From: Bacillota bacterium
GTDB taxonomy: Bacteria > Bacillota > SHA-98 > UBA4971
Direction: 5' to 3'
Assembly: GCA_030024085.1 (NCBI GenBank)
Contig: JASEJE010000028.1
Coordinates: forward strand, 1-40,221
Length of the DNA: 40,221 nt
Under the pieces are notes generated by a model, which was not told where the DNA came from, made no database searches, and saw only the letters and a program-made list of their open reading frames with translations. Of this stretch, positions 2,674 to 33,134 are shown one piece after another. A program made the position numbers and the translations under genes. The number at the start of each line of letters is the position of its first letter. The stretch's first letter is position 1.

Positions 2674-2722
2674 TATTGTGCCTTCGTTAAGAGTTGTTGC
2701 TGCCATGTTAAATCCATGTTAA
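2674..2722 (-). promoter_or_regulatory. PHO box (four direct repeats) and promoter of pstB-phoU
   Basis: On the minus strand TTAACA (2722-2717), TTAACA (2711-2706), GCAACA (2700-2695) and TTAACG (2690-2685) follow each other at 11, 11 and 10 bp. This is the helical-phase repeat of TT(A/T/C)ACA bound by PhoP in Bacillus subtilis. CACAAT (2680-2675) is a candidate -10 box, placing the repeats at about -17 to -54, as in known Pho promoters. This gives pstB-phoU a promoter of their own inside the phoP-phoR-pstB-phoU run. Confidence 0.75.
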
Positions 2723-2746
2723 GTGAGCACGCATCGTCACGCATTC

Positions 2747-4703: not shown

Positions 4704-5408
4704 TCAGACGTCCTCCCTGAACCTGTAGCCTACCCCGTGGACCGTCTGGATGTACGTGGGGCGCGAGTCGTCCTCCTCGATCTTCTGGCGCAGGCGCCTC
4801 ACGTGCACGTCCACGGTGCGGGTGTCCCCGCCGTACTCGTATCCCCAGGCCTTTTCCAGGAGGAAGTCCCTGGTAAGCACCTTGCCCCGGTTTGCCACGA
4901 GGACGCGCAGGAGCTCGAACTCCTTCGGCGTAAGCTCGGTCCGCGCTCCCCTGACCTCCACCTCGAACCGCGCGGTGTCTATCACGAGGTCGCCCACGTG
5001 GATGCGGCCTGAAGCATCGCGCGCTTTCGTTTCCTCGAGGTCCATCTCGCGCCGACGCAAGAGCGCTTTGACCCTCGCGACGAGCTCGCGCGGGCTGAAC
5101 GGCTTCGTGACGTAGTCGTCAGCCCCCACCGATAGTCCCAGCACCCTGTCGAACTCCTCTGTCTTCGCCGTGAGCATGAGGACCGGCACGCTCGTCTCGC
5201 GGCGAAGCTGCCGGCACACCTCGATGCCGTCGATCCCGGGGAGCATGAGATCGAGGATCACGAGGTCGGGGGACTCGCTCCGCGCGCGTTCGAGGCCCTC
5301 TTCGCCGTCGGTGGCCGTGAGGACCGAGAAGCCTTCCTTCTCGAGGTTGAACCGGACCAGCTCCAGGATTGGGGCCTCGTCGTCAACCACAAGCACTTTC
5401 TTCGTCAT
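4704..5408 (-). CDS. phoP: phosphate response regulator PhoP (OmpR/PhoB family)
   Basis: DNA-binding response regulator paired with PhoR. The receiver domain (1-120) has the acidic pocket D9/D10, the phospho-acceptor D53 in ILDLMLPG, and K102 in TKPFS. The C-terminal winged helix (about 135-230) has the family signature LTPKEFELLRVL and ends in TYIQTVHGVGYRF. At 234 residues it has the normal length. The ATG at 5408 follows GGAGGAAGG. It is the first gene of the minus-strand Pho block and is divergent from the hydrogen-sensor gene. The PHO boxes before pstB are its expected target. Confidence 0.95.
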   Translation of the reverse strand: MTKKVLVVDDEAPILELVRFNLEKEGFSVLTATDGEEGLERARSESPDLVILDLMLPGIDGIEVCRQLRRETSVPVLMLTAKTEEFDRVLGLSVGADDYVTKPFSPRELVARVKALLRRREMDLEETKARDASGRIHVGDLVIDTARFEVEVRGARTELTPKEFELLRVLVANRGKVLTRDFLLEKAWGYEYGGDTRTVDVHVRRLRQKIEEDDSRPTYIQTVHGVGYRFREDV

Positions 5409-29941: not shown

Positions 29942-29994
29942 ATTCTCTGCGCCCGATTTGCGGCGCAGGACGCTGAAGGCGAGGTGTGGACGAT

Positions 29995-31005
29995 ATGGAA
30001 GACACGGCACTCGAGTGTATCGGTGCACGGAAAGTGTTCCGCGTGAAGAAAGAAACGAGGCCCGAGACGCATCTCTCCACTGAGTGGTCCGTCGCGTCGG
30101 CCGCGGGCGACCCCGGCGGACAGGATGCCGCGCAGCCCGGCACCCACGGCGGAAAGCAGGGTCCGGGCGTCAACGGCCACGGTGCCGCCATCGGCGCCAC
30201 CAACGGCAGGCATCGTGGGCGGCTGGCCCTCTCCCGGGCGATGGCCACCCTGTTCCCGCGCAGCGTGCCGGTGGAGGCTGTGTCGGGCGTAACGTTTAGC
30301 GTGAAGCGGGGCGAGATATTCGGAATCCTGGGGCCCAACGGATCCGGTAAGTCCACGCTCATCAGGCTGATATCCACGCTGCTCCTCCCGGACGATGGCG
30401 AGATCAGGGTGTTCGGCCACGACGTGGTGCGCGAGAGGTTCGCTGTGCGGCGCCTGATAAACCGCGTCTCCGTGGAGGCGGCCTTCTTCAAGAAGCTTTC
30501 CGCCATGGAGAACCTGAGCTACGCCGCGAGACTGTACGACGTGGACATCCGCCAGGCGAGGCGGACCGCCATCGAGATCCTGAAGCGGCTGGGCTTTGGC
30601 GAAAACAAGGCATACGAGCCGCTCGAGGATCTGTCCCGGGGGATGCAGCAGAAGGTTGCGGTCGCGAGGGCGCTCCTCACGTCCCCGGTGCTGCTCCTCC
30701 TCGACGAGCCGACCACGGGCCTCGACCCCGTGTCGAAGAGGGAGGTTCAGGACTATGTGCTCGAGGTGAGGGATTCCCACGACACGACGGTGATCCTGAC
30801 CACCCACGACATGCAGGAGGCCGACCGGTTGTGCGACAGGGTGGCCATCATCGATCAGGGCAGGTTCGTGGCTCTCGATACGCCGATGCACCTCAAGGCG
30901 GGTCTTGGCAGGAACGGCGACGGCGAGGCGGCGACCCTGGAGGACGTGTTCTTCGCGCTCACCGGAAAGGCGCTCAAGGAGTCTCATCCGGAGGAGGGAG
31001 ATTAG
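29995..31005 (+). CDS. ABC transporter ATP-binding protein
   Basis: ATPase of an ABC-2 type exporter. Motifs: Walker A GPNGSGKST, Q-loop region SVEAAFFKKLSAMENLSYAA, signature LSRGMQQKVAVARAL, Walker B LLLLDEPTTGLDP and H-loop TTHDMQEADR. Odd feature: between the first strand (LECIGARKVFRVKK, about 5-20) and the second (VPVEAVSGVTF, about 90-100) lies an insert of about 60 Gly/Ala/His/Arg-rich residues that ordinary ATPases lack. Similar split starts occur in daunorubicin/teichoic-type exporters with extra loops, but this insert looks like low-complexity linker. ATG 29995 follows GCGAGGTG by 8 nt; GTG 29986 in the same frame is possible. The permease gene follows 1 nt after the stop. Substrate unknown. 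Confidence 0.9.
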   Translation: MEDTALECIGARKVFRVKKETRPETHLSTEWSVASAAGDPGGQDAAQPGTHGGKQGPGVNGHGAAIGATNGRHRGRLALSRAMATLFPRSVPVEAVSGVTFSVKRGEIFGILGPNGSGKSTLIRLISTLLLPDDGEIRVFGHDVVRERFAVRRLINRVSVEAAFFKKLSAMENLSYAARLYDVDIRQARRTAIEILKRLGFGENKAYEPLEDLSRGMQQKVAVARALLTSPVLLLLDEPTTGLDPVSKREVQDYVLEVRDSHDTTVILTTHDMQEADRLCDRVAIIDQGRFVALDTPMHLKAGLGRNGDGEAATLEDVFFALTGKALKESHPEEGD

Positions 31006-31006
31006 G

Positions 31007-31816
31007 GTGATCGAACTCGCAAGGGAGCTGAGGAGAAGCTACGCTCTGGTCGAGCGGAACTTCAACCTCATCAGGAGATACATAGGCTGGGAGATCGTGT
31101 TCCTCGTCTACACGGTGGTGAACACGCTCACGATAGCGTTCATAGGTGTGAATCCCGCCACCGGCGGAGGCGGCGACAGGGTGCTCTACCTGGTGGTGGG
31201 CGCTCTGCTCTGGGGGTTCCTCTCGGTGCTCTTCCATGAGGTGGCAGAGTCCGTGCAGTGGGAGCGCTGGGAGGGGACGATCGAGTACTCGTTCATGGCG
31301 CCCATGAAGCGCCTGTCATACCTGGGCGGGGTGTGCCTCTACGCTGCGACCTACGGAGCTGTAAGGACCGTGGTGGTCATGCTCGCGGTGGTGGCCCTAT
31401 TCAAGCTGGACCTGGGCAGCGCGAACCTCGGGGCGGCGTTAGTCGTGCTCCTGCTCTCGAGCCTGTCCTTCATAGGCGTCGGGCTGATGGCTGCGGTGCT
31501 GCCGCTGCTGTCTCCTGAGAAGGGCTCGCAGGCGGCGCACATCCTGGAGGCCGCGATCCTCCTGGTTTCGGGCGTCTACTACGAGGTCAGCGTGCTGCCA
31601 GGGTGGCTTCAGCCACTCTCGCGGCTGTCCCCGGCCACCTACACCTTGAGAGCGGCGCGTGCGGCGTTGCTCGAGAACGCCTCGCTCCGCGATATCGGCG
31701 GCGATCTCGTGTTGCTCCTTGCCATCGGGGTGGTGCTCATACCCCTTGGTCTCAAGGTGTTCAATTGGGGCGAGCTCCATGCGATGCGCACCGGCAAGCT
31801 GAAGAGGAGCGGCTGA
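31007..31816 (+). CDS. ABC-2 type transporter permease
   Basis: Membrane partner of the preceding ATPase. The 269-residue protein has six predicted membrane segments (near 25-45, 60-80, 108-132, 140-165, 170-200 and 230-250), and the ABC-2 family pattern SVQWERWEGTIEYSFMAPM and LSPATYTLRAARAALL. GTG 31007 begins two bases after the ATPase stop, with GGAGGGAG upstream, so the two are translated together. Substrate cannot be read from the sequence; lipid, drug or polysaccharide export is possible. Its last codons lie in the first unit of the 11-bp repeat. Confidence 0.9.
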   Translation: MIELARELRRSYALVERNFNLIRRYIGWEIVFLVYTVVNTLTIAFIGVNPATGGGGDRVLYLVVGALLWGFLSVLFHEVAESVQWERWEGTIEYSFMAPMKRLSYLGGVCLYAATYGAVRTVVVMLAVVALFKLDLGSANLGAALVVLLLSSLSFIGVGLMAAVLPLLSPEKGSQAAHILEAAILLVSGVYYEVSVLPGWLQPLSRLSPATYTLRAARAALLENASLRDIGGDLVLLLAIGVVLIPLGLKVFNWGELHAMRTGKLKRSG

Positions 31817-31895
31817 GGAGCGGCTGAGGAGCGGCTGAGGAACGGCTGAGGAACGGCTGAGGAACGGCTGAGGAACGGCTGAGGAGCGTCTGAGG
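31804..31895. repeat. 11-bp tandem repeat at the end of the permease gene
   Basis: Eight units of GAGGAGCGGCT or GAGGAACGGCT follow one another (31804-31891) plus a partial ninth. The stop codon of the permease lies at the join of units 1 and 2, so units 2-8 are untranslated. The unit length equals about one helical turn. Confidence 0.9.
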
Positions 31896-32056
31896 GGGGC
31901 GTCTGACAGGTTGCCTCGAGCACGGCCTCGTTCACTCGTTCAGAGGTTGTTCAGGCCGGCCGATGGATGAAACGAAATGTTCAGACGCCGCTTAGAAACG
32001 GTTCAACGATGGCGGGTATACTCAAGCCGGAGACTCGCGAGAGGAGGTAGATCGAC

Positions 32057-32263
32057 ATGACGGACCAGAGGTTGCTCGGCCTTCTGATGCAAGGGATGAA
32101 GGGGCTGTACGCCGCCTCCTGGGAGGAACCGGGAGGAAAGGCGCGCGAAGACACCAAATCACGCGAAGCAGGGGAGGCTGAAGCCTCCGCTAGCAACACT
32201 GCACCAGGGAGGGTCCGGAGATGGTATTCATGGTTGGTAACATCAGGGTCTCCATCGAGATAG
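32057..32263 (+). CDS. possible 68-residue small protein
   Basis: ATG 32057 has a strong GAGGAGGT site 8 nt upstream, good evidence for translation. The N terminus (MTDQRLLGLLMQGMKGLYAASW) looks like an amphipathic helix; the rest is Glu/Ala/Lys rich and then Arg/Ser/Trp rich with no family resemblance. The last 43 nt overlap the next small gene in another frame. It may be real only in its first half, with coupling to the 56-residue gene behind it. Confidence 0.4.
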   Translation: MTDQRLLGLLMQGMKGLYAASWEEPGGKAREDTKSREAGEAEASASNTAPGRVRRWYSWLVTSGSPSR

Positions 32264-32391
32264 AGAACAGCAGGGACAAGGTCGAGAGGTCCCGGCGGGA
32301 GCGCATGTATCAGGATATGCTGACCGAAAAGCACTTCGACCAGGTGCGTTCCAAAGCGATAAGGGATACGATGTTCGTGGGGCTGAGATAG
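32221..32391 (+). CDS. 56-residue protein of unknown function, tandem paralogue 1
   Basis: MVFMVGNIRVSIEIE starts a small soluble protein that ends KHFDQVRSKAIRDTMFVGLR. It has two short beta strands at the N terminus and a basic helical second half. The product is 29/56 identical, without gaps, to the ORF at 32493-32663, which is strong evidence that both are genes. A GGGAGGGTCCGGAG stretch precedes the ATG. I do not know the family. Conserved residues (VGN-R, E-E, KHFDQVR, AIR, MF-GLR) suggest a helix used for binding. It lies in a run of small genes upstream of rpmE. Confidence 0.7.
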   Translation: MVFMVGNIRVSIEIENSRDKVERSRRERMYQDMLTEKHFDQVRSKAIRDTMFVGLR

Positions 32392-32492
32392 CCCTCGAGG
32401 ACCGGGGAAGCACGGGCCGCAGCGCCCGAGGAACAAGCTGCGGGTGCAGGGCGCCTCAGCAGACTACATAGCCAGACGAGGAGGTTTTAGCA

Positions 32493-32663
32493 ATGATGTT
32501 CGTGGTCGGTAACGTCAGGATCGCCGTCGAGGTGGAGAGGAACCAGCGCGACTCGCGGGGTGCCCGCGACGAGCGGATCCTCCGCGACGTGTTGACGCAG
32601 AAGCACTTCGACCAGGTTCGCACCGCAGCCATAAGGAATGCGATGTTCTCCGGGTTGAGGTGA
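32493..32663 (+). CDS. 56-residue protein of unknown function, tandem paralogue 2
   Basis: Paralogue of the preceding 56-residue protein, the same length, with the pattern VGN-R, E-E, ERI-RDVLTQKHFDQVR, AIRNAMFSGLR. The ATG at 32493 (or 32496) has an ideal GAGGAGGT site 7 nt upstream. The middle (16-26) is the only divergent part. The two copies are 101 nt apart. A hairpin at 32707-32729 may end their transcript. Confidence 0.75.
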   Translation: MMFVVGNVRIAVEVERNQRDSRGARDERILRDVLTQKHFDQVRTAAIRNAMFSGLR

Positions 32664-32860: not shown

Positions 32861-32889
32861 TTGATGAGGTAGGTCCTTTGTGCTATAAT
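32861..32889 (+). promoter_or_regulatory. rpmE promoter
   Basis: TTGATG (32861-32866), 17-nt spacer, TATAAT (32884-32889) preceded by TGC, thus also an extended -10. Transcription should begin near 32896. Confidence 0.8.
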
Positions 32890-32933: not shown

Positions 32934-33134
32934 TTGAAGAAGGGAATACATCCGGAGTACTTCATGACCACCGTGACGTGCGCATGTGGGGAGAAGTTCG
33001 AGGTCGGCTCGACCCGCAAGGATCTCAGGGTCGAGATATGCTCCAAGTGCCACCCGATGTTCACCGGCAAGCAGAGGATAGTCGACACCGGCGGCAGGGT
33101 GGAGCGCTTCAAGAGAAGGCACGGTCTCCAGTAG
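32934..33134 (+). CDS. rpmE: 50S ribosomal protein L31, zinc-binding form
   Basis: Ribosomal protein bL31 of 66 residues. The four zinc ligands C16, C18, C36 and C39 ([16 protein letters not shown]) mark the zinc-containing form, as opposed to the C-minus form that replaces it under zinc shortage. [22 protein letters not shown] is the diagnostic signature. The start codon is TTG at 32934, supported by GGAGGTG 8 nt upstream and by the length. It is the first gene of the conserved rpmE-tdk-prfA string. Confidence 0.96.

Follow-up and report, generated by a model that had tools for sequence, protein, structure and literature searches.

The YrzI proteins of Bacillus (PF09501) occur in tandem arrays. 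At yrzI, a study of Rae1 reportedly noted an overlapping upstream ORF and possible toxicity. In envelope stress regulons of the LiaFSR type, LiaR is a LuxR/NarL-type regulator. PMC10100781 describes the yrzI operon mRNA as encoding multiple peptides of unknown function. PhoB-type regulators bind head-to-tail 11-nt repeats, and the core of the S. coelicolor PHO box is GTTCACC, as given in PMC4415409.

Tandem 56-codon genes and their wider family

Two short ORFs were identified in the window, which is the whole stretch of 40,221 nucleotides analyzed here. Both were defined from the ORF list, homology searches and dN/dS:

32221..32391, + strand: copy A, 56-aa protein
32493..32663, + strand: copy B, 56-aa protein

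Each product has exactly 56 aa and the ORFs are spaced by 101 nt, with purine-rich, ribosome-site-like sequences (read by eye) located 8 nt upstream of copy A (GGAGG) and of copy B (AGGAGG). The two proteins are identical at 29 of 56 residues in an ungapped alignment (111 of 168 nucleotides), while 20000 shuffles of the sequence of one copy resulted in a mean of 4.3 and a maximum of 14 identities. In these respects the coordinates and shuffles agreed with the original prediction. When its own genome (G000) was searched with copy A, exactly two places were recovered, namely copies A and B.

Functional constraint on both ORFs had also been predicted and was seen between orthologues (Nei-Gojobori), with dN/dS values of 0.22 (G000-G003), 0.32 (G000-G002) and 0.37 (G000-G005) for copy A, and 0.39 (G000-G003) for copy B. 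Constraint looks weaker between paralogues, the ratios being 0.50-0.54 for copy A against copy B within one genome and 0.70-0.81 when the one G002 copy was compared with both B copies. In eight shifted-frame controls the ratio ranged from 0.42 to 1.87, so that dN/dS alone is modest evidence of coding, and the stronger argument for real genes is the wider family. Copies A and B are real, constrained genes; chance ORFs were ruled out by the shuffles, the orthologue ratios and the family members found elsewhere.

The prediction hinged on homologues in relatives, and these were found: single-sequence and then iterated profile searches identified 22 members, spread over 15 of the 398 Bacillota genomes sampled. 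The pair thus belongs to an undescribed family of about 53-68 residues present in some Bacillota, and no description of it was found in the literature searched. For acceptance as a member, a match had to begin with a start codon that has a ribosome site and to extend close to the stop codon of the frame it lies in. Profile matches in G102, G280, G296, G395, G377 and G081, among others, were rejected as lying inside long unrelated frames or matching the helix only; that in G081 was judged by eye to be an S4-like protein. Profiles A1, A3 and A5 were built stepwise from earlier matches, which inflates the final E-values of the seeds. Unseeded support was obtained with one sequence for G015 (1.4e-5) and G016 (0.005); with A1 for G294 (0.003), G014 (0.03) and G001 (0.05); with A3 for G031 (1.2e-10), the third paralogue described below (5e-6 to 5e-5), G127 (8.6e-6), G160 (0.002) and G234 (0.011 and 0.040); and with A5 for G257 (4.4e-12) and contig C21 of G005 (1.1e-6). 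Within sister genus g2, none of seven genomes matched in the single-sequence search, nor did any of the six listed for the last profile search.

The protein end KHFDQVR...AIR..MF.GLR, which had been taken as conserved, is so within the genus but not in the wider family, where the shared part is an N-terminal segment, M-hydrophobic4-G-N-x-x-[IV]-x-[IV]. The most distant members align loosely in the middle, and their alignment is not to be read column by column.

A third paralogue was identified in the same genome (G000:C55:12064-12231, or L089:3065-3232), with counterparts in loci L090-L093 and L125. It is located between htrA-like and nif3-like genes in all six genomes of the genus; these genes were named by eye, and the neighbours were read in G000, G001 and G005 and deduced for the other three from near-identical sequence and flank. 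It has a strong promoter (TTGACA/TATGCT) and dN/dS values of 0.27-0.50 over five pairs, while the sixth pair (G000-G002) displays two synonymous changes and no others.

Based on an AlphaFold model made with five sequences, strands were predicted at residues 2-5 and 8-11 and a helix at 24-53. With a mean pLDDT of 54 the model is poor and only the order of elements is worth keeping; the likely arrangement is a short beta segment at the N-terminus and, after it, a single charged helix. Copy A has 12 K+R against 9 D+E and copy B 11 against 7, with neither cysteine nor tryptophan. The pair had been described as being of unknown family, and this held: no member had a significant match in Pfam or NCBIfam, nor were significant matches found among PDB chains (best E 0.12) or, for copies A and B, which were those scanned, in PHROGs (best 0.059). 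A match of copy A to SnAC (E 0.0046), scoring 17.9 bits where the cut-off is 27, covered 20 helix residues and was regarded as composition. A phage or plasmid origin was rejected, no significant relative being present in the collections searched: plasmids yielded no relatives, viral contigs 56 pattern stretches of which none was confirmed, and phages four partial matches at E 1, none significant.

The upstream ORF and the cassette locus

A further ORF precedes copy A:

32057..32263, + strand: ORF68 (68 residues), candidate leader ORF or non-coding 5' region

ORF68 overlaps copy A, as predicted, the overlap being 43 nt, and has a ribosome-site-like AGGAGG (read by eye) 9 nt upstream. It did not prove to be an equally good gene. 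It is present in three of the six genus genomes (G000, G003 and G002, the last with a 12-nt in-frame deletion), and its dN/dS of 0.47-0.50 is matched for one pair by a control frame (0.46). Its substitutions are even over codon positions (10,14,13; 14,13,14; 12,13,13), with no third-position bias. The copy of the family gene in G005 lacks ORF68, which is therefore dispensable for the family.

This absence of a codon pattern, together with unusually high nucleotide-level conservation where ORF68 and copy A overlap, would fit ORFs that serve as leader sequences or an RNA element, the peptides themselves being inactive. That explanation is considered most improbable given the protein-level constraint of copies A, B and the third paralogue, the many loci without a close downstream gene on the same strand, and the search of Rfam, in which no match, and so no structured RNA, was seen.

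The overlapping ORF also recalls yrzI. A YrzI-like toxic or mRNA-decay-linked peptide would be harmful and tightly controlled with such an upstream ORF, and the length, the layout of beta-like start and charged helix, the tandem copies and the overlap all resemble yrzI. Homology was however rejected at the profile level: the PF09501 profile found nothing in G000 even at E 0.1, hmmscan with either copy did not list PF09501 at any E up to 10, and hhalign of the two families gave a probability of 0.1% over 6 columns, a weak test with just 3 sequences on the YrzI side. There is moreover no transmembrane-like stretch, and ORF68 is only a candidate coding frame. We regard such a peptide as highly unlikely.

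The pair and its surroundings consist of the following features:

29986..31005, + strand: ABC exporter ATPase, neighbour (best NCBIfam model DrrA, under its cut-off)
31007..31816, + strand: ABC-2 permease, neighbour (start chosen by comparison with L007)
31938..31959, + strand: two 11-bp phased units, GTTCAGAGGTT GTTCAGGCCGG (kept in L003 and L004)
31979..32011, + strand: three 11-bp phased units, GTTCAGACGCC GCTTAGAAACG GTTCAACGATG
32017..32022, + strand: TATACT, -10 box of the cassette promoter (together with TAGAAA at a spacer of 18, 9 of 12 matches)
32861..32889, + strand: promoter TTGATG-17-TATAAT of the next gene, rpmE, marking the end of the cassette
32934-33134: rpmE, next gene after the cassette

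The mechanical ORF of the permease starts at 30905, and the start at 31007 was taken from the L007 comparison. The ATPase gene was found also in genomes without the cassette. A contig scan revealed relatives at the same place, upstream of rpmE, in L003 (JACIXY010000008.1, 86%) and L004 (DKEX01000035.1, 59%). G001 and G004 have just a short gap, free of these ORFs, separating the permease gene from the rpmE promoter. In a tree of the rpmE-tdk region (1450 columns) G003 and G004 were joined with support of 100/100; as G003 has both copies and its sister none, loss of the cassette in G004 is most likely.

The single copy of G002 (L004:6001-6171) resembles copy A over its first half (diagnostic sites: 11 A, 6 B) and copy B over the second half (1 A, 13 B), a split equalled in 92 of 5000 shuffles. 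Tandem copies that recombined would fit this pattern; so would an ancestral state.

An 11-nt tandem repeat (GAGGAGCGGCT / GAGGAACGGCT) was observed at 31804-31891 of the window. It starts in the last codons of the ABC-2 permease and continues beyond the stop, and L003 has a shorter version.

Promoter architectures and neighbouring genes

The units of the cassette promoter are head-to-tail repeats spaced by 11 bp just upstream of the -10 box, and the three-unit block lies where one would expect a response-regulator site in place of the -35 box. By analogy, such phased TTCAGA-type repeats are typical of targets of an OmpR/PhoB-type response regulator. An extra GTTCAC at 31930 is 3 nt out of phase with the two-unit block. 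In L003 there are two pairs of exact GTTCA units, the second of them preceded by a degenerate unit (GTCGAG), and L004 has two plus three units, one being GTTGA. Across the three species, 26 of 30 columns in the units of both blocks are invariant against 35 of 65 outside (31938-32038 without the -10 box; Fisher p 0.0014, a guide only, the columns not being independent). The family gene at the same place in G005 lacks the phased repeats.

The exact pattern GTTCAN6GTTCA occurs seven times in the genome and its reverse not at all. Three of these sites fall within other genes, and for a fourth (C28) there is no obvious gene. The remaining three stand before this cassette, before a gene for a LiaF-TM-like membrane protein (C9) and before an ABC exporter (C62) whose genes were named by eye. 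The C9 product matches LiaF-TM with E 7.9e-05, under the Pfam cut-off, and its gene is preceded by four phased TTCAGA-type units in G000, which are kept in G003, one of them less exact. The repeat at the C62 ABC-2 exporter, also in G000, is less exact than that before the LiaF-like gene. Allowing two mismatches or fewer, the three-unit pattern was found at 32 sites against 12 control sites over six genomes, with 9 against 1 in G000 and no excess in G001 and G004, which lack the cassette (1 against 1 and 2 against 2). The LiaF-like site is located in L126 near 1440-1510 (G000:C9:8959-8996) and in L144, downstream of a thioredoxin-like gene.

Membership of the Pho regulon was rejected, the cassette repeats being unlike those at the pst genes of the same genome. 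As pstB and pstS carry TTAACA-type sites and the cassette TTCAGA-type ones, another OmpR-family regulator is the better guess. Just before pstB, on the minus strand, TTAACATGGATTTAACA (window 2711-2727) contains two TTAACA units 11 bp apart and resembles a Bacillus-type Pho box. A regulator is encoded at 4704-5408; its best models were YycF, MtrA, RpaB and PhoB, with none of the 25 listed above its cut-off. A CssR-like link to htrA was likewise rejected, no phased TTCA repeats being present in the 330 nt before htrA in the five genomes covered (G000, G001, G003, G004 and G005).

Other members have a different element, an inverted repeat (TTRAY-N6-RTYAA) that starts exactly 1 nt downstream of the -10 hexamer. 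It was counted in 10 of 16 family upstream regions, namely those of the six copies at htrA-nif3, of G016, of G160 and of the two G234 copies (L089-L093, L096, L097, L098, L102 and L125). The six genus copies are one locus, so that these amount to about four independent cases, and some of the sequences counted had themselves served to draw the pattern by eye. It is found at unlinked loci in three taxonomic families and is absent from G014, G015, G031, G127, G257 and G294, as well as from the cassette promoter. Its placement over the start point suggests a putative repressor. That repressor might be the small protein itself, a DNA-binding autoregulator acting on its own gene and its neighbours, since the proteins are basic, with a beta segment at their start, and the repeat recurs at unlinked loci. 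The regions that lack the repeat, this cassette included, argue against an autoregulator, as do the missing break that would give the two helices of a ribbon-helix-helix fold (by eye and from the model) and the lack of a match to DNA-binding families in Pfam and NCBIfam, so that this role is judged quite unlikely.

ABC-2 exporter genes, their families confirmed by Pfam, adjoin the family gene at this cassette, in G014/G016 and at two places in G234. A local profile detected ABC-2 ATPases more often around family genes (5 of 13 loci, each about 3 kb) than at controls (4 of 73), with p 0.003, or 0.012 when G014 and G016 count as one. The test was post hoc, and its controls had been reached through other searches rather than drawn at random (81 rows minus 8 family loci or duplicates; the G160 fragment was not counted). 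The small gene of G016 runs into the start codon of the ABC gene, the two sharing ATGA. These associations argue for an accessory subunit that binds and tunes the exporter next door, whatever the signal. Against this, the orientation of the exporter varies (upstream, downstream or divergent), and the htrA-nif3, G015, G127, G257 and G031/G294 loci have no ABC-2 neighbour. Furthermore, in G160 (L123, G160:C118) an intact small gene is followed by a frameshifted, shortened ABC ATPase remnant where G234 has a whole ABC-2 exporter. An accessory-subunit role is judged unlikely.

In G257 a Coat_F gene lies 51 nt downstream of the family gene. A check for a link to sporulation or stress had been suggested at the outset: for sporulation this one neighbour of one relative is a thin hint, and a stress link is suggested by promoter architecture only.

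Proposed function and comparison with described systems

From the constrained genes, their family and the conserved repeats we infer a regulator, a signal and a molecular action as follows. The tandem pair would be a cassette under a promoter of its own, and an OmpR/PhoB-family response regulator would drive it by binding the 11-bp phased TTCAGA-type repeats. The inducing signal would most likely be cell-envelope or antimicrobial stress, because the same repeat precedes the LiaF-like gene and, less exactly, an ABC-2 exporter. The small proteins would be the induced effectors, binding and modulating an envelope protein, possibly an ABC-2 exporter. This combined mechanism is favoured tentatively, at somewhat under an even chance. 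Counted against it are G005, with its family gene but no repeats, the sub-threshold LiaF-TM match, the lack of motif excess in G001 and G004, the G160 small gene that outlived its ABC neighbour, and the pLDDT of 54. As other members have a different promoter element, the envelope signal need not hold for the whole family. A broader version, doubtful in our view, is a portable stress module in which proteins of about 56 residues would have been rewired between response-regulator promoters and repressor-type ones with an operator over the start point, and would serve to defend the envelope by acting on ABC-2 exporters or on a LiaF-like system.

Overall, this is a real, undescribed family of modest interest, missing from the reference libraries searched here; small regulated proteins of this kind are easily missed by annotation. 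What is new is the wiring, namely phased TTCAGA-type repeats before a -10 box, conserved in three species. The two conserved promoter architectures offer a concrete handle: once the regulator acting on the TTCAGA repeat and the repressor acting on TTRAY-N6-RTYAA are found, the timing of expression would follow. The ABC-2 neighbourhood points to a candidate partner.

Compared with described systems, the family shares with YrzI the very small size, the beta-like start and the charged helix, but YrzI proteins have about 47 aa and lack the G-N turn. DUF5908 (PF19265) is similar in length (about 55 aa) and in its beta-like start, and the G015 member aligns with it over residues 3-45; that match, in one of 17 members, fell short of membership (E 0.089; 14.1 bits against a cut-off of 27.7). 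With the PHO box the cassette promoter has in common the head-to-tail 11-nt repeats, while the pstB and pstS sites of its own genome differ in type. The cassette repeat looks OmpR-type and LiaR is of another regulator type; the likeness to LiaFSR-type envelope stress regulons lies in the LiaF-TM-like gene, which carries the phased repeat of the cassette.
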